DNA from: Oscillospiraceae bacterium
Lineage (GTDB): Bacteria; Bacillota; Clostridia; Oscillospirales; Ruminococcaceae
Length of the DNA stretch: 64,000 nt
Direction of reading: 5' to 3'
NCBI GenBank assembly: GCA_015067025.1
Contig: SVNC01000006.1
Coordinates: 62,001 to 126,000 of the forward strand
How positions within the stretch are numbered: position 1 is the stretch's first letter; the number at the start of each line of letters is the position of its first letter. Shown one piece after another: positions 9,678-18,035 of this stretch. Below the pieces are notes generated by a model. That model did no database searches and was not told where the DNA came from. It saw only the letters and a program-made list of their open reading frames with translations. Position numbers and translations under genes: made by a program.

Positions 9678-10502
9678 TTGGATAAAAAGCTTAAGCTTTA
9701 CGGTTTTAACAATCTGACTAAAACTCTCAGCTTCAACATTTACGATGTTTGCTATGCAAAAAGTGCGAGAGAGCAGAGAGATTATATAGACTACATAGAC
9801 GAGCAGTATAATTCTGAGCGACTTACAGGTATACTCTGTGACGTTACAGACATAATCGGTGCTAACGTGCTTAATATATCAAAGCAGGACTATGACCCTC
9901 AGGGAGCAAGCGTTACTCTGCTTATCTCCGAAAAGGCAACGGCAGGTACAGAGATAGACCCCAGCTGTAATAAGGGAATGGTAAACGGCGAACCGCTCAA
10001 TCCCAGAATGCAGAAGAGTGAAACGGTAGTTGCCCATCTTGACAAATCTCACGTTACTGTACATACCTATCCTGAGTACCATCCGAATAACAGTATATCC
10101 ACTTTCCGTGTTGATATAGACGTTTCCACCTGTGGAGAAATATCACCGCTGAACGCCCTTGATTACCTTATCGGCAGTTTTGATTCTGACATAATCACGA
10201 TCGACTACAGAGTAAGAGGCTTTACAAGAGATTTAAGCGGACACAAGCTGTATCTTGACCACGATATCACTTCTATTCAGGATTTTATAAACGACTACAC
10301 TCTCACAAAATACGACGCTACGGATATAAACGTATATCAGGCTAATATTTTCCATACAAGACTTATGATAAGAGAAATGGAACTGAAAAATTACCTTTTC
10401 AATTCCGACATCTACGATATTCCACCCAAGGAAAGATTACGTATTACAGAAAGTCTTCGCCGCGAGATGATAGAGATATATTCCGGGATGAATATATATT
10501 GA
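9678..10502 (+). CDS. speD: S-adenosylmethionine decarboxylase proenzyme (274 aa)
   Basis: This enzyme makes decarboxylated SAM, the aminopropyl donor for spermidine synthesis. It is the long Gram-negative-like SpeD type (E. coli about 264 aa). The self-cleavage site is visible as [14 protein letters not shown]: cleavage between K123 and S124 would convert the serine to the catalytic pyruvoyl group. C152 in [15 protein letters not shown] and the aromatic [15 protein letters not shown] segment also fit the family. Translation starts at TTG behind AGGAAAGG. It heads a group with a PLP decarboxylase and SpeE, together forming most of a spermidine pathway. Confidence 0.93.
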
Positions 10503-10616
10503 AATTTGCATTGCAAATTTCAAGTGAAGTATCTGCATACGCAGATGTGAAGAAGTGAAGCGTGCCTGTGGCACGTGAAGTCGCTTCGCTTGTAAAGGTA
10601 TCCGCCATTGGCGGAT
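10501..10616 (+). repeat. Array of four hairpins separated by GTGAAG
   Basis: Between speD and the decarboxylase gene lie the palindromes GAAATTTGCA-T-TGCAAATTTC (10501-10521, overlapping the speD stop), ATCTGC-ATAC-GCAGAT (10531-10546), CGTGCC-TGT-GGCACG (10561-10575) and ATCCGCC-ATT-GGCGGAT (10600-10616). GTGAAG occurs at 10524, 10547, 10555 and 10575 as a spacer. No T-run follows, so readthrough into the next gene is likely. The elements could affect mRNA stability, or be inserted repetitive DNA. Confidence 0.7.
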
Positions 10617-10642
10617 GAATTTTATATGTTAGGATAAAATAT

Positions 10643-12088
10643 ATGGAAAATCAGAACAAAGCCCCTATTTATGAGGCACTAAAAACCTATAAACAAAAAA
10701 GAATAGTTCCCTTTGACGTTCCGGGACATAAGATGGGCAGGGGTAACCCTGAACTGACAGAATTTTTAGGCAAAGAATGTATGACGGCAGACGTCAATTC
10801 TTCAAAGCCGCTTGATAATCTCTGTCACCCCGTTTCTGTGATAAAGGAAGCGGAAAAAATTGCTGCCGATGCCTTTGGCTGCAAAAACGCTTTCTTTATA
10901 GTAAACGGAACTACGGCGGCGGTGCAGGCAATGGTGCTTGCAGTTGCAAAGCGTGGCGAAAAGATCATTATGCCGCGAAACGTACACCGTAGTGCAATTA
11001 ACGCCCTTATCTTAGGCGGTGCTGTACCCGTTTACGTAAATCCGGGTGTTAATAAGGAGCTTGGCATCCCTCTTGGTATGAGATATGAGGATGTGGAAAA
11101 GGCGATAAAGGAAAATCCTGATGCCAAGGCGGTATTTGTGAATAATCCTACCTATTACGGCGTATGCTCGGATATAAAGAGAATTGCCGACCTTGCCCAC
11201 GAAAACGGAATGTATCTACTTGCAGACGAGGCTCACGGCACACACTTTTATTTTGCCGACGGAATGCCCGTTGCAGGTATGCACGCAGGTGCTGATATGG
11301 CGGCTGTAAGTATGCATAAAAGCGGTGGTTCACTTACTCAGAGCAGTTTTCTGTTAACAAGTGATGCTGTGAATGAGGGGCACATAAGACAGATAATAAA
11401 TCTTATGCAGACCACCAGCGGCAGCTATCTTTTAATGTCCAGCCTTGACATTTCAAGAAGAAATCTTGCTTTAAACGGTAAGGAGATCTTTGAAAAGGTT
11501 AAAAGCTATGCGGAATATATGCGTAGCGAGATTAACGAGATAGGCGGCTATTACGCCTTTTCAAAGGAGCTTTGTGATGGCGGAGCGTTTTATGATTTTG
11601 ACGTGACCAAGCTGTCAATTCATACGAGAGATATCGGACTTGCAGGAATTGAGGTTTACGATATCCTGCGTGACAGCTACGGTATACAGATAGAATTTGG
11701 TGACATCGGCAATATTTTAGCCTACGTTTCAATAGGTGACAGAGAGCTTTATCTTGACCGCCTTATAGGTGCTTTAAATGACATCAAGCGTATTTATCAG
11801 AAGGATAAAACGGGTATGCTTGACCATGAATATATAAATCCCATTGTAAAGCTGTCACCTCAGGAGGCGTTTTACGGAGATAAGGTTTCCGTACCTATTG
11901 AAAAGAGTGCGGGTAAGATAAGCGGAGAATTTGTAATGTGCTATCCGCCAGGTATTCCGATACTTGCTCCGGGTGAGCAGATAACCGAGGAAATTCTCGC
12001 ATACATAAAATATGCAGGGGAGAAGGGCTGTTTCCTCACAGGTACGGAGGATCTTGAAATTAAGAATATAATGATTCTTGAAAATTAG
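10643..12088 (+). CDS. speA: PLP-dependent arginine/lysine/ornithine decarboxylase (481 aa)
   Basis: A fold-type I basic amino acid decarboxylase of the short B. subtilis SpeA/YaaO type. The PLP lysine is K226 in SMHKSGGSLTQ; D195 in LLADEAHGTHF would hold the pyridine nitrogen; the N-terminal PGHKMGRGN segment is also typical. The C-terminal domain (about 370-481) ends with the GEFVMCYPPGIPILAPGE element. In B. subtilis the homologue gives agmatine from arginine; here no agmatinase lies alongside, so lysine to cadaverine or ornithine to putrescine cannot be excluded. The symbol is used in the B. subtilis sense and substrate is uncertain. Confidence 0.85.
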   Translation: MENQNKAPIYEALKTYKQKRIVPFDVPGHKMGRGNPELTEFLGKECMTADVNSSKPLDNLCHPVSVIKEAEKIAADAFGCKNAFFIVNGTTAAVQAMVLAVAKRGEKIIMPRNVHRSAINALILGGAVPVYVNPGVNKELGIPLGMRYEDVEKAIKENPDAKAVFVNNPTYYGVCSDIKRIADLAHENGMYLLADEAHGTHFYFADGMPVAGMHAGADMAAVSMHKSGGSLTQSSFLLTSDAVNEGHIRQIINLMQTTSGSYLLMSSLDISRRNLALNGKEIFEKVKSYAEYMRSEINEIGGYYAFSKELCDGGAFYDFDVTKLSIHTRDIGLAGIEVYDILRDSYGIQIEFGDIGNILAYVSIGDRELYLDRLIGALNDIKRIYQKDKTGMLDHEYINPIVKLSPQEAFYGDKVSVPIEKSAGKISGEFVMCYPPGIPILAPGEQITEEILAYIKYAGEKGCFLTGTEDLEIKNIMILEN

Positions 12089-12100
12089 AAAGGCGAAAAA

Positions 12101-12958
12101 ATGGAATTATGGTTTACCGAAAATCACAGTGACAGCGTAAGATTTTCAATAAGAGTAGATGAACATTTGTACACCACAGAAACAGATTATCAGAGGATAG
12201 ACGTATTTCAGTCGCTGGAGTTCGGAAAGCTCCTTGCTCTTGACGGCTACGTGATGATAACCGAAAAGGACGAATTTATATATCACGATATGATAGTGCA
12301 CGTTCCTATGGCGGTAAAGAAAGACGTTAAGAACGTTCTTGTAATAGGTGCAGGCGACGGCGGTACTGTAAGAGAACTTTGCCGTTATAAAAACATTGAA
12401 CATATTGATTTAGTGGAAATTGATGAAAAGGTAGTAGAGGTGTGTAAAGAATACTTCCCCTCGATGACAGTTTCTATGGATGACCCGCGACTCAGCATCC
12501 ACTATGCAGACGGACTCCGCTTTGTAAGACGCAAAAAGGAAGAATACGACCTTATCATAGTTGATTCTACTGACCCCTTCGGACCGGGCGAGGGACTTTT
12601 TACAAAGGAATTCTACGGCAATTGCTACAATGCCCTTACAGAAAACGGAGTGCTTGTAAATCAGCACGAAAGTCCCTTTTATATAAACGACGCCAAGGCA
12701 ATGTGTGCGGCACACGAGAGAATAAGCTCGGTATTTCCTTTACACAGGGTGTATCAGGCTCATATCCCTACTTATGCCAGCGGACATTGGCTCTTCGGTT
12801 TTGCAAGTAAGGGACTTGATCCGTTAAAGGACCTTGACGAAGAATATTGGAACAGTCTTGGTATCAGGACTAAATATTATAATACAGAGCTTCATAGGGG
12901 CTGCTTTGCATTACCTAATTACGTTATAGATATGATAAAAAACGGTATGGATAATTAA
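12101..12958 (+). CDS. speE: Spermidine synthase (285 aa)
   Basis: It transfers the aminopropyl group of decarboxylated SAM to putrescine, using the product of speD. The N-terminal beta hairpin region contains the substrate-pocket sequence FGKLLALDGYVMITEKDEFIYHDM-type spread over residues 42-66. The Rossmann methyltransferase-like core has the nucleotide motif VIGAGDGGTVREL (about 82-94), the acidic VEIDE strand end and the catalytic-loop IVDSTDPFGPGEGLF (about 154-168). The length is normal. The gene starts 12 bases after the decarboxylase stop behind AAAGGCG and is surely in the same operon. Confidence 0.94.
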   Translation: MELWFTENHSDSVRFSIRVDEHLYTTETDYQRIDVFQSLEFGKLLALDGYVMITEKDEFIYHDMIVHVPMAVKKDVKNVLVIGAGDGGTVRELCRYKNIEHIDLVEIDEKVVEVCKEYFPSMTVSMDDPRLSIHYADGLRFVRRKKEEYDLIIVDSTDPFGPGEGLFTKEFYGNCYNALTENGVLVNQHESPFYINDAKAMCAAHERISSVFPLHRVYQAHIPTYASGHWLFGFASKGLDPLKDLDEEYWNSLGIRTKYYNTELHRGCFALPNYVIDMIKNGMDN

Positions 12959-15025: not shown

Positions 15026-15030
15026 AAATA

Positions 15031-15060
15031 AATCCCTTTATCATTACGGATAAAGGGATT
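15031..15060. terminator. Bidirectional terminator after the CPBP pair
   Basis: A 12-bp perfect stem AATCCCTTTATC/GATAAAGGGATT followed by TTGTTATTGTT on the plus strand and preceded by an A-rich run. It lies between converging genes. Confidence 0.9.
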
Positions 15061-15075
15061 TTGTTATTGTTATTA

Positions 15076-17604
15076 TTACGCAGTAACAATGCTGTCAGCC
15101 TTGTGTAACTTCAGCTTTTCTACAGCCTGTTCTCTCATCTTGTACTTTAATATCTTGCCCGCCGCATTCATAGGGAAGCCGTCTACAAAGTCAACGTATC
15201 TGGGCACCTTGTGCTTTGCCATATGGTCACGTACAAAGGTCTTGATCTCTTCCTCTGTAGCCGTTTCACCTTCCTTAAGTACGATGCAAGCCATGATTTC
15301 TTCGCCGTACTGTTCGTCAGGAACACCGATTACCTGAACGTCCTTTACCTTATCGTTTGTGTATAAGAATTCTTCAATCTCCTTAGGATAGATGTTTTCG
15401 CCGCCACGGATGATCATATCCTTGATACGACCCGTGATCTTGAAGTAGCCGTCCTTTGTGCGTCTTGCAAGGTCGCCTGAATGTAACCAACCGTCAGAGT
15501 CGATTGCTGCCGCAGTAGCCTCGGGCATCTTATAGTAACCCTTCATTATGTTGTAGCCTCTTGCACAGAATTCGCCGTCTGTTTCATCGGGTAATTCTTC
15601 GCCTGTTTCGGGGTCAACAATCTTACATTCAACGCCGAAGATAGGACCGCCTACCGTATTTACTCTTGCCTCGATAGTATCGGAGGTCTTGCTCATTGTT
15701 GTAGCAGGGCTTGCTTCTGTCTGACCATAGGTGATGCATATTTCAGGCATATGCATCTTTTCGATAACCTCTTCCATTACCTTTATAGGACAGGGAGAGC
15801 CTGCCATAATACCTGTTCTCATATGTGAGAAGTCAGTCTTGTCAAAGTCAGGGTGTTCAAGCATTGCAATGAACATCGTAGGTACGCCGTGGAAGGCAGT
15901 GATCTTTTCTTCGTTTATGCAGTGCAGACCCTTTCTGGGAGAAAATGCGGTGATAGGGCTCATAGTAACGCCGTGGGTTACAGATGCTGTCATTGCCAGT
16001 ACCATGCCGAAGCAGTGGAACATAGGAACCTGAATCATCATCTTATCAGCAGTTGAAAGATCCATACAGTCACCGATAGCCTTACCGTTGTTTACTACGT
16101 TGTAGTGTGTCAGCATAACGCCCTTGGGGAAGCCTGTAGTGCCTGATGTGTACTGCATATTGCATACATCGTGCTTGTCAATGGCACGACGCATATTTTC
16201 AACCTCGCTTAAGGGTACAGTTTCGGATAACGCCATAGCTTCATCCCATGTAAAGCAGCCGGGCTGTTTTGAGTCGGTTGTAACGATGCTCTTAAGTCTG
16301 GGGAGCTTTGCACTGCGGAGCTTACCGGGTTCGCAGGTCTTCAGTTCAGGGCACAGCTCGTTCATAATAGCAACGTAGTCGCTATCCTTGTAGCCATCTA
16401 CCATAACTAAGATATCCGTATCTGACTGACGGAGCAGGTATTCTGCTTCGTGTACCTTGTATGCTGTATTTACAGTAACTAAAACCGCACCGATCTTTGT
16501 TGCTGCCCAGAACGTGATATACCATGCAGGAACGTTTGTTGCCCAGATAGCAACGTGGCTGCCCTTCTTTGCACCCATTGCGATTAAGGCACGGGCGAAG
16601 GTGTCAACGTCGTTTCTGAATTCGGGATAGGTTCTTGTATAGTCAAGCTCTGTATATCTGAAAGCGTACTGGTCGGGGAATTCTTCGCATACTCTGTCTA
16701 AAACGTCAGGGAATGTGTAGTCGATAATTCTTTCCTTGGGCCAGATATACTTACCTGTTCCTCTGTTGTCTGTCTGTAAGGGGTGCTTGTGCTGTTTTTT
16801 CTTGTAAGGTGTCATATAGTCCATATACTGAGGGAATACGATACCCGCATCACACAGATTATTGGACCAACGCTTTACCCATTCAAGAGATACGTAGCCC
16901 TCATAGCCTGTAGCCCTCAGAGAATCCAGCATATCCTTTAAAGGCATATCGCCTTCACCCATAAGCTTATACTGTAACTCTCCGTCTGTCATTACACTGT
17001 CCTTGATGTGGCAGTATCTGATATATGTACCGAGGTTTGCAATAGTATCATTGGCACTTTCTCCGCAGTAGCGGTAGGGGTGATGCATATCCCACAATGC
17101 GGCAACCTCGCTTCTGCCTACCTTGTCAAGTAAAGCCTTTAAACGCTTTGTATCCGCATATACGCCGTTTGTTTCTACAAGCAGAGTAACGTCGCACTTT
17201 TCCTTTGCAATATCAGCAAGCTTTGTGAGAACGGATGCTACGTAATCATCGTCCACTTCGTCAACGGGCATAGGATCTCTGTCGCCGAGGATACGGATGT
17301 ATGGAGTGCCTAATTTTGCCGCAAGCTCAATATAGCTTGTGATCTCGCTGATCGTTTCTGCTTCCTTTTCCTTGTACTTTAAAGCACAGCCTGAAGAAAG
17401 GCAGGGAATTTCGAGATCAAGGCTCTTAAGCTTGTTTACAGTACCGGGCAGGTGCTTTTCTGTAAAAGGCTTTGCCTTTACAGCAACGATATCCTGACCC
17501 AGACCACGGATCTCAATTCCGTCATAGCCTAAGTCCTTTGCCATAGAGTAGATGTCTGTCCATTCAAAATCGGGACAAGCGAGAGTTGAAAAACTGATTT
17601 TCAT
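15076..17604 (-). CDS. Fusion of a sugar-isomerase-like TIM barrel and an acyl-CoA synthetase (842 aa)
   Basis: Residues 1-270 are a xylose-isomerase-like TIM barrel (sugar phosphate isomerase/epimerase family). Likely metal ligands sit in LLVETNGV, ALWDMHHPYRY, YCHIKDS and VSLEWVKRW. Residues 290-842 are a complete AMP-forming acyl-CoA synthetase, with YTSGTTGFPKGVML for ATP binding, YGQTEAS, DGWLHSGDLARR, the hinge GRIKDMIIRGGENIYP and the catalytic lysine in MNAAGKILKYKM. The open frame is uninterrupted, so this is one polypeptide. The gene is alone between a terminator and a T-box leader. The ligase would activate a carboxylic acid; acid and barrel substrate are not known. Confidence 0.87.
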   Translation of the reverse strand: MKISFSTLACPDFEWTDIYSMAKDLGYDGIEIRGLGQDIVAVKAKPFTEKHLPGTVNKLKSLDLEIPCLSSGCALKYKEKEAETISEITSYIELAAKLGTPYIRILGDRDPMPVDEVDDDYVASVLTKLADIAKEKCDVTLLVETNGVYADTKRLKALLDKVGRSEVAALWDMHHPYRYCGESANDTIANLGTYIRYCHIKDSVMTDGELQYKLMGEGDMPLKDMLDSLRATGYEGYVSLEWVKRWSNNLCDAGIVFPQYMDYMTPYKKKQHKHPLQTDNRGTGKYIWPKERIIDYTFPDVLDRVCEEFPDQYAFRYTELDYTRTYPEFRNDVDTFARALIAMGAKKGSHVAIWATNVPAWYITFWAATKIGAVLVTVNTAYKVHEAEYLLRQSDTDILVMVDGYKDSDYVAIMNELCPELKTCEPGKLRSAKLPRLKSIVTTDSKQPGCFTWDEAMALSETVPLSEVENMRRAIDKHDVCNMQYTSGTTGFPKGVMLTHYNVVNNGKAIGDCMDLSTADKMMIQVPMFHCFGMVLAMTASVTHGVTMSPITAFSPRKGLHCINEEKITAFHGVPTMFIAMLEHPDFDKTDFSHMRTGIMAGSPCPIKVMEEVIEKMHMPEICITYGQTEASPATTMSKTSDTIEARVNTVGGPIFGVECKIVDPETGEELPDETDGEFCARGYNIMKGYYKMPEATAAAIDSDGWLHSGDLARRTKDGYFKITGRIKDMIIRGGENIYPKEIEEFLYTNDKVKDVQVIGVPDEQYGEEIMACIVLKEGETATEEEIKTFVRDHMAKHKVPRYVDFVDGFPMNAAGKILKYKMREQAVEKLKLHKADSIVTA

Positions 17605-17669
17605 TTTTCTTTTCTTCCTTTCTTTGTCGGGGAGTCAGATATTCCGATATATGAGAAGGGTACTGATGA

Positions 17670-18000
17670 TAAAATAAAAAACCCGTCCCAAAGATAATTC
17701 TTTGAGACGGGTGTATAAACGTTACCCGCGGTACCACTCAAATTGCATTCTCATGCCACTCAGACTCCATTAAGTCTTATGCAGTTACGTTGCAGTTACG
17801 GAAAACACTACTCGCAAAAACAAGTGTAATAACGTCGTTGATCACATCACTACCGTCGTTTTACCTGCTATCGCCTTTATACTTGCCGCTTTCGCATTTT
17901 CAGCTCAGAAGGGAGAGGCTATTCAGCTATAGATGTCGGCTCGCACCATCCGCCGATTCTCTGAGATCCTTTTACTGTTGCCGTCTTCGTCACAGCCATT
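17670..18000 (-). promoter_or_regulatory. T-box leader upstream of the acyl-CoA synthetase fusion
   Basis: On the minus strand the leader has Stem I hallmarks: an AGTA element, CAGAGA and the GGTGCGA loop between paired TCGGC/GCCGA. These are followed by other helices and the T-box GTGGTACCGCGGG (17739-17723). The terminator stem (17712-17681) is followed by a T-rich run. The bulge UGGU would pair with a tRNA ending A73-CCA. The specifier is not certain; CTC (leucine) before TCCCTTCTGAGC is my best candidate, because tRNA-Leu has A73 while serine tRNAs (for the alternatives TCC or AGC) usually have G73. Binding of uncharged tRNA would prevent termination and raise expression. Confidence 0.9.
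17681..17712 (-). terminator. Intrinsic terminator of the T-box switch
   Basis: On the minus strand ACCCGTCTCAAAG pairs with CTTTGGGACGGGT (one G-T wobble) around AATTAT, followed by TTTTTTATTTTAT. The upstream T-box can pair with the 5' arm to form the competing antiterminator. Confidence 0.9.
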
Positions 18001-18006
18001 GAGAGT

Positions 18007-18035
18007 ATCATATCACAAAAATTTTCTGTTGTCAA
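18007..18035 (-). promoter_or_regulatory. Promoter of the T-box transcript
   Basis: TTGACA (18035-18030), a 17-base spacer and TATGAT (18012-18007) on the minus strand give a start near 18000, exactly at the 5' end of the T-box structure. Confidence 0.88.

Follow-up and report, generated by a model that had tools for sequence, protein, structure and literature searches.

A leucine T-box riboswitch precedes a candidate isovalerate-activating acyl-CoA ligase fusion in an Oscillospiraceae bacterium

Rumen ruminococci require branched volatile fatty acids and form leucine from isovalerate, a carboxylation that Allison reportedly followed in ruminococci by tracer work in 1962 and 1966. Excerpts of PMC7356843, in which Allison 1962 and 1966 are cited, describe the formation of leucine by carboxylation of isovalerate in rumen microbes; for the activation step of this route, neither a gene nor its regulation is named in the literature examined, part of it in excerpt. 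MbcS of Staphylococcus aureus accepts 2-methylbutyrate and isobutyrate, is poor with isovalerate and feeds fatty acid synthesis (excerpts of PMC10026030). For T-box riboswitches, Wels 2008 (PMC2494555, in excerpt) states that the specifier agreed with the role of the gene where function had been verified, which favours reading gene role from the specifier codon. Here we describe a locus on the minus strand of a 64,000-nucleotide stretch of an Oscillospiraceae bacterium (the window; contig SVNC01000006.1, positions 62,001 to 126,000), at which a T-box leader precedes a single stand-alone gene (15076–17604) that encodes a fusion of a TIM barrel with an AMP-forming acyl-CoA ligase. We consider it probable (∼ 0.82) that a leucine T-box here controls a ligase that activates isovalerate for reductive carboxylation to leucine.

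The covariance search with RF00230, which a first-pass annotation of this DNA had proposed as a check, aligns the leader with the complete model (positions 1–219) at 70.7 bits. This is below the Rfam gathering score of 93, which is a curator threshold and no defining feature of T-boxes, and a default Rfam scan of the window therefore shows no T-box. An insert of ∼ 70 bases after Stem I in the alignment may lower the score. Twelve T-boxes were detected in the genome, six of them above the cut-off, and the window leader ranks eleventh by score. The alignment, together with a GAAG/CUUC helix next to the kink-turn (K-turn), accounts for a Stem I with K-turn and specifier loop. The T-box sequence UGGUACCGCG (17736–17727) contains a UGGN bulge that matches the acceptor end of the tRNA, and a predicted terminator of the competing kind that marks the class follows at 17712–17681. 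The −10 box of the promoter (18035–18007, minus strand) is preceded by TG. That the T-box is more than a chance match is confirmed by the covariance E-value, by conserved leaders of orthologous genes and by a register common to the genome's other T-boxes. The first-pass annotation had placed promoter, Stem I region, T-box, terminator and one gene at these coordinates, and all of them hold (covariance E-value 2.1e-15, promoter 11/12, 14-pair terminator).

The specifier was read by aligning Stem I with that of ten of the genome's other eleven T-boxes; the remaining one, which precedes a sister ligase, was left out. At one fixed alignment position the codon fits the gene behind in nine of the ten (pheS is off by one base): UUC and UAC for two DAHP synthases, CUC for leuA, UGG for a trpB-like gene, AAC for aspS-gatA, UGC for cysE-cysS, CCC for proS and AUC for ilvA and ileS. 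These gene names were read by eye, and only leuA was confirmed by Pfam. The window leader reads CUC in this register (17915–17913), and its block CCUCUCCCUUCUGAGC is identical to the specifier block of the leuA leader, behind which lies a leuA-leuC-leuD-leuB operon (order by eye; LeuA by Pfam). Two copies of tRNA-Leu(GAG) were found in the 11 stretches scanned, with an ACCA acceptor end and a discriminator A73 that matches the UGGU bulge of the leader. Leucine specificity is thus supported by several lines of sequence evidence: the shared register, the block identical to that of leuA, the CUC and CUG codons of relatives, A73 of tRNA-Leu(GAG) and the leucine-rich leader peptides of relatives (both below). 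A leucine-type leader with CTC as its specifier and a bulge that calls for A73 had been suggested at the outset, and both suggestions are borne out; a codon outside the branched-chain set, named there as the outcome that would speak against them, was not what the register gave. UCU, AGC and GCC were considered as specifiers and are ruled out by the register common to the genome's other T-boxes.

Relatives of the fusion were collected in two sets. A search of 60 genomes (our own included; the 59 relatives are used for presence and absence counts) returned fusions at 52–76% identity over most of their length, plus fragments and unfused relatives. The second set comprises 80 named loci at 70–81% identity, the best 80 of 582, four of which have a short upstream sequence. 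A T-box motif (9/11 or better) lies within 450 bases upstream at 23 of the 80 named loci, versus 2.6 expected from shuffles. Rfam finds a T-box at all 11 relatives' loci scanned (81.9–124.5 bits, six above 93), which were hand-picked and had the motif already visible in each. A codon-blind picker, which uses the helix adjoining the K-turn and not codon identity, ranks a leucine codon (29 CUC, 4 CUG) highest in 33 of the 39 distinct leaders read from the two sets, that of the window included; the codon varies while the amino acid is constant. L078, the 23rd motif locus of the 80, was left out of this reading. The six leaders without leucine on top are L120, L124 and L127 (leucine by eye), L034 (CUC ranked second, and CUC by eye in the same leader as L140), L131f (CUC tied) and L037, where the motif apparently sits within an upstream gene and no T-box is present.

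Some relatives that lack a T-box carry in its place, upstream of the ligase or its operon, short leucine-rich reading frames with ribosome sites: MKRLNLANLLLLLLFTSKSE (L097), MNRVYSANLLLLDLALLLSEK (L098), MKTLNLANLLLLLLLPQEIE (L104) and MKNFSLANLFLLLLLPMNYE (L106), with less extreme cases at L079, L083, L093, L096 and L100. At least five leucines per ten residues occur in 7 of 55 leaders versus 0.37 expected from shuffles, and at least six in four of the 55 and in none of the shuffles; L065, among the seven, could be a chance case. Several of these peptides are followed by a terminator-like hairpin, and their sequences resemble those of classical leucine attenuators. A quick tree of 87 proteins requires at least 12 changes of the T-box label and five of the leader-peptide label (the leader labels of L094 and L137 were assigned by eye), which suggests that control was repeatedly lost or swapped. 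The same tree nests the fusion of a Methanobrevibacter assembly (L095, JABUVA010000033.1) within a bacterial clade; this bacterial fusion is probably contamination of the assembly. At L137:8367–11800 (G036), an unfused ligase lies behind a major-facilitator transporter gene, with a possible leader peptide MSNRNRLISNLFINEALPASLLGLLIIIGCPVVRCVALKV upstream (by eye); a possible role for the transporter is import of the acid.

The distribution of the ligase ties it to leucine supply in a way that goes beyond the leucine signal itself. True leuC (hits of 610 bits or more) is missing in 19 of the 59 relatives; the remaining hits (≤ 283 bits) look aconitase-like. The ligase, counted as present when fused or when unfused at ≥ 54% identity, occurs in 18 of the 19 leuC-less relatives versus 16 of the 40 with leuC (Fisher p = 5e-5, uncorrected for kinship). 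Among genomes at least 90% complete the figures are 13/13 and 12/33, and the single leuC-less genome without the ligase (G039) is 55% complete. The ligase is unfused in five of the 34 ligase genomes (G006, G021, G036, G040, G059) and found as fragments only in three (G004, G017, G020).

Five leuC-less genomes (G049, G037, G051, G057, G046) have a LeuA-like gene directly before the fusion, and in four of them a clear leucine T-box precedes the pair. The RDG and HxHN motifs present in our genome's own LeuA are missing from each of the five LeuA-like proteins; the three of the five scanned with Pfam keep the LeuA_dimer allosteric domain. From these sequence features, the LeuA-like protein is possibly a leucine-sensing pseudoenzyme.

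The fusion also has sisters under other branched-chain codons. Our genome encodes a 778-residue helix-turn-helix (HTH)-cupin-ligase behind an AUC (isoleucine) T-box (L009:569–2902 = C6:109568–111901). Its best family model is MbcS, below cut-off; three sister ligases score 426–450 bits against the MbcS model (NF047394), whose cut-off is 850. Separate HTH-cupin and ligase genes lie at C28:84571–86816, the ligase being 56% identical to that behind the isoleucine T-box; none of the genome's 12 T-boxes is located there. Fourteen of 24 sister-ligase loci in relatives have a T-box motif and ten have none. At the 14, the picker returned AUC nine times and GUA twice, was wrong at L158 and L163 and made no pick at L161; L161 and L163 read AUC by eye, and GUA at L168 was picked at a poor site and is also GUA by eye. 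The GUA (valine) T-boxes belong to sister ligases in G057 and G022. At five of the 80 named loci a sister ligase lies upstream of the fusion, divergently in one.

In at least 5 of the 60 genomes (G045, G046, G049, G057, G059), the gene for VorB, of the 2-ketoisovalerate-type ferredoxin oxidoreductase (VOR), and that for an MbcS-like ligase share a strand and lie no more than ∼ 2 kb apart; the adjacent ligase copy bears a T-box only in G049 and G057. The order in G049 (L130) is isoleucine T-box, ligase, ATPase, VorB, VorA, IlvE, leucine T-box, LeuA-like gene, fusion; VorB scores 535.8 against an NCBIfam cut-off of 399, and IlvE also passes. G057 (L133/L187) has three ligases behind leucine, isoleucine and valine T-boxes, the last with IlvE and VOR genes downstream; VorB is broken there in this assembly. 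These neighbours and the isoleucine and valine T-boxes suggest that salvage of branched acids into leucine, isoleucine and valine is switched by the matching tRNA, as it appears from the two genomes. VorB exceeds 400 bits in 45 of the 60 genomes, ours included, where it sits in a separate ATPase-vorBAC-like cluster (genes other than VorB by eye).

The 842-residue protein matches PF01261 (residues 22–245), PF00501 (303–691, 310 bits) and PF13193 (742–817, 70.6 bits), all above cut-offs, which bears out the TIM-barrel/AMP-forming ligase fusion first read by eye. The two C-terminal domains and a TSGTTGFPKG motif, invariant across 13 aligned sequences, identify the ligase as an ANL acyl-CoA synthetase. 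Its best model is PRK12583, below that model's cut-off, and MbcS is absent from the 25 NCBIfam models listed (of 113 matched). The barrel has no equivalog match; its best NCBIfam model is fructoselysine 3-epimerase (45 versus a cut-off of 305), and the barrel alone gave no PDB sequence match at E 0.001. E144, D172, H199 and E241 of the barrel (acidic residues and a histidine) are conserved in most of the 13 sequences and not in L046. A structure model of medium quality (mean predicted local distance difference test score, pLDDT, 76) confirms the ligase fold only, the predicted fold giving a list of matches filled by ANL-type ligases over the C-terminal half. The features of the locus are collected in Table 1. 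Elsewhere in the window (9678–12958, plus strand) lie three adjacent genes that by eye are polyamine-like (S-adenosylmethionine decarboxylase, Orn/Lys/Arg decarboxylase, spermidine synthase).

Table 1. Features of the T-box–ligase locus (window coordinates) and LeuA-like genes next to the fusion in leuC-less relatives (locus coordinates).
Feature	Position	Strand	Details
Promoter	18007..18035	−	−35 TTGACA 18035–18030, −10 TATGAT 18012–18007, 17-base spacer; consensus scan, 11/12
T-box riboswitch leader	17700..18002	−	RF00230, 70.7 bits, E 2.1e-15, model 1–219 of 219
Stem I region: K-turn, specifier loop, distal loop	17902..18002 (limits approximate)	−	Covariance alignment; GAAG/CUUC helix adjoining K-turn (picker)
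Specifier codon CUC (Leu)	17913..17915	−	Register set by ten further T-boxes in this genome; top choice of codon-blind picker (L020)
T-box sequence/antiterminator core	17727..17744	−	UGGU bulge 17736–17733, complementary to 5'-ACCA-3' of tRNA-Leu(GAG)
Intrinsic terminator stem-loop, then T run	17681..17712	−	14 pairs, 7 G-C
Fusion open reading frame, 842 residues	15076..17604	−	Xylose-isomerase-like TIM barrel ∼ 1–270; AMP-forming acyl-CoA ligase ∼ 295–842
Terminator-like hairpin 3' of gene	15030..15061	−	Palindromic, seen on both strands
LeuA-like gene, G049	L130:10465–11847
LeuA-like gene, G037	L131
LeuA-like gene, G051	L132
LeuA-like gene, G057	L133:8534–9898
LeuA-like gene, G046	L134

T-box, leucine codon, cognate tRNA, domain make-up, distribution and the link between ligase and leucine supply can all be read from the sequence comparisons. 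At leucine shortage, uncharged tRNA-Leu(GAG) would pair through its anticodon with the CUC specifier and through its ACCA end with UGGU, stabilizing the antiterminator so that transcription would run on into the single gene. Judging from regulation and gene content, the ligase would then make isovaleryl-CoA from external isovalerate released by other microbes. A VOR encoded elsewhere would carboxylate this reductively to 4-methyl-2-oxopentanoate, from which a branched-chain aminotransferase (BCAT) would yield leucine. We infer that isovalerate is the substrate and is then carboxylated reductively; both points fit the VOR–BCAT–ligase clusters of two relatives and the selectivity of MbcS: poor use of isovalerate by MbcS (PMC10026030, in excerpt) would explain a separate ligase for leucine. 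Within a wider set the fusion would be the one for leucine, and the MbcS-like ligases behind isoleucine and valine T-boxes probably handle 2-methylbutyrate and isobutyrate. Leucine salvage, as first proposed for this locus, gains from the tie to leucine seen in the leuC-less relatives, and needs three corrections. The carboxylation would be reductive (ferredoxin-linked); isoleucine and valine versions of the design occur alongside; and because the genome has a leuACDB operon, the ligase route is a second route to leucine and not the sole one. The idea that the ligase replaces a missing leucine pathway in this genome is ruled out by the same operon. Beyond this, we tentatively picture a three-part salvage in gut and rumen Clostridia with a ligase and T-box for each acid (isovalerate for leucine, 2-methylbutyrate for isoleucine, isobutyrate for valine). 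In some leuC-less lineages a catalytically dead LeuA with its leucine-binding domain may have become the leucine sensor of the isovalerate ligase, adding feedback at the protein level. This wider scheme is possible, though we would sooner bet against it than on it.

Several observations weigh against leucine supply through isovalerate. The genome already has leuACDB. Its VOR lies on another contig, where no T-box was found, and three fusion genomes (G001, G003, G007; 80–86% complete) gave no strong VorB. Among the 80 named loci (flanks up to 6 kb) VorB, IlvE and LeuA-like neighbours number zero, the one weak hit of this search being the fusion itself, and neighbour clustering gave no widely shared partner. 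The T-box motif is present at only 23 of these loci, with ∼ 2.6 attributable to chance, and most of the 80 have neither a T-box nor a recognised leader peptide; Ruminococcus flavefaciens 007c (L071) has the gene, and neither T-box nor leader peptide was found there. None of the 25 NCBIfam models listed (of 113 matched) passes for the ligase. The presence/absence test is uncorrected for kinship and counts the three fragmentary copies (G004, G017, G020). On ten control leaders of our own genome the picker was correct on top in five and within the top two in seven, so misses are expected; a cruder first picker, which admitted K-turns within the distal loop where its replacement demands a helix adjoining the K-turn, gave leucine in 21 of 41 leaders.

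The ligase could prime branched-chain fatty acids or plasmalogens, with leucine control mirroring the usual origin of such primers in leucine breakdown. MbcS of S. aureus does so with 2-methylbutyrate and isobutyrate (PMC10026030, in excerpt), and the lack of VorB or IlvE neighbours at any of the 80 named loci is in keeping with it. We regard this as unlikely, since the clustered sister ligases of G049 and G057 adjoin VOR and BCAT genes, 18 of 19 leuC-less relatives retain the ligase, and the genes behind the ten other T-boxes of the genome (sister ligase aside) are by eye for tRNA synthetases or amino acid synthesis. Less likely again is a variant isopropylmalate route in which the barrel, whose fold is that of an isomerase, works with the LeuA-like protein and the ligase in place of LeuCD. 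It would account for the LeuA-like gene in front of the fusion in five genomes (G037, G046, G049, G051, G057), four of which have a clear leucine T-box ahead of the pair, but every one of these proteins is without the RDG and HxHN motifs, no such neighbour turns up in the flanks of the 80 named loci (up to 6 kb), and an unfused ligase that lacks the barrel (L048/L135) also carries a leucine T-box.

Two further alternatives have very little to recommend them. VOR and AMP-forming ligases are in principle reversible, and the pathway might run in the direction of breakdown, from leucine-derived acyl-CoA to acid with a gain of ATP; this is highly improbable because a T-box or a leucine-codon attenuator turns its gene on when charged tRNA-Leu is scarce, which is the wrong way round for a catabolic gene. 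That the specifier is another codon, such as the adjacent UCU (Ser) or GCC (Ala), is barely conceivable: CCUCUCCC permits several frames by eye, but the register is fixed in nine of ten T-boxes of the genome and leucine comes first in 33 of the 39 leaders.

Two unrelated RNA mechanisms link the ligase to leucine, and 18 of the 19 leuC-less relatives possess it; it is a testable candidate gene for the first step of the isovalerate-to-leucine route described in the 1960s, and the isoleucine and valine T-boxes of its sisters offer equivalent candidates for those amino acids. T-box control would thereby reach into cross-feeding on fermentation acids. This matters for rumen nutrition and for the prediction of auxotrophy, as a leuC-less genome need not depend on leucine.

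Literature searches, with T-box regulon supplementary tables outside their scope, gave no report that links a branched short-chain acyl-CoA ligase with T-box control. The RNA class is known; the ligase as its target and the design with one ligase per acid are new as far as the searches reach. From the excerpts available, the leucine T-box of Geobacter leuA (PMC2700814, PMC2494555) resembles the window leader in RNA class and in its tRNA-Leu(GAG) logic, but drives a gene of the isopropylmalate pathway, whereas the window T-box controls an acyl-CoA ligase fusion. MbcS, as far as its description in excerpt goes, shares with the window system the AMP-forming activation of external short branched acids and is the nearest model for the isoleucine and valine sisters; it differs in serving fatty acid synthesis and in its poor use of isovalerate, and it stands on a different branch from the window ligase, whose best model is PRK12583. 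The isovalerate route of ruminococci, in the parts of the literature covered, has the same chemistry as that proposed here for the fusion.

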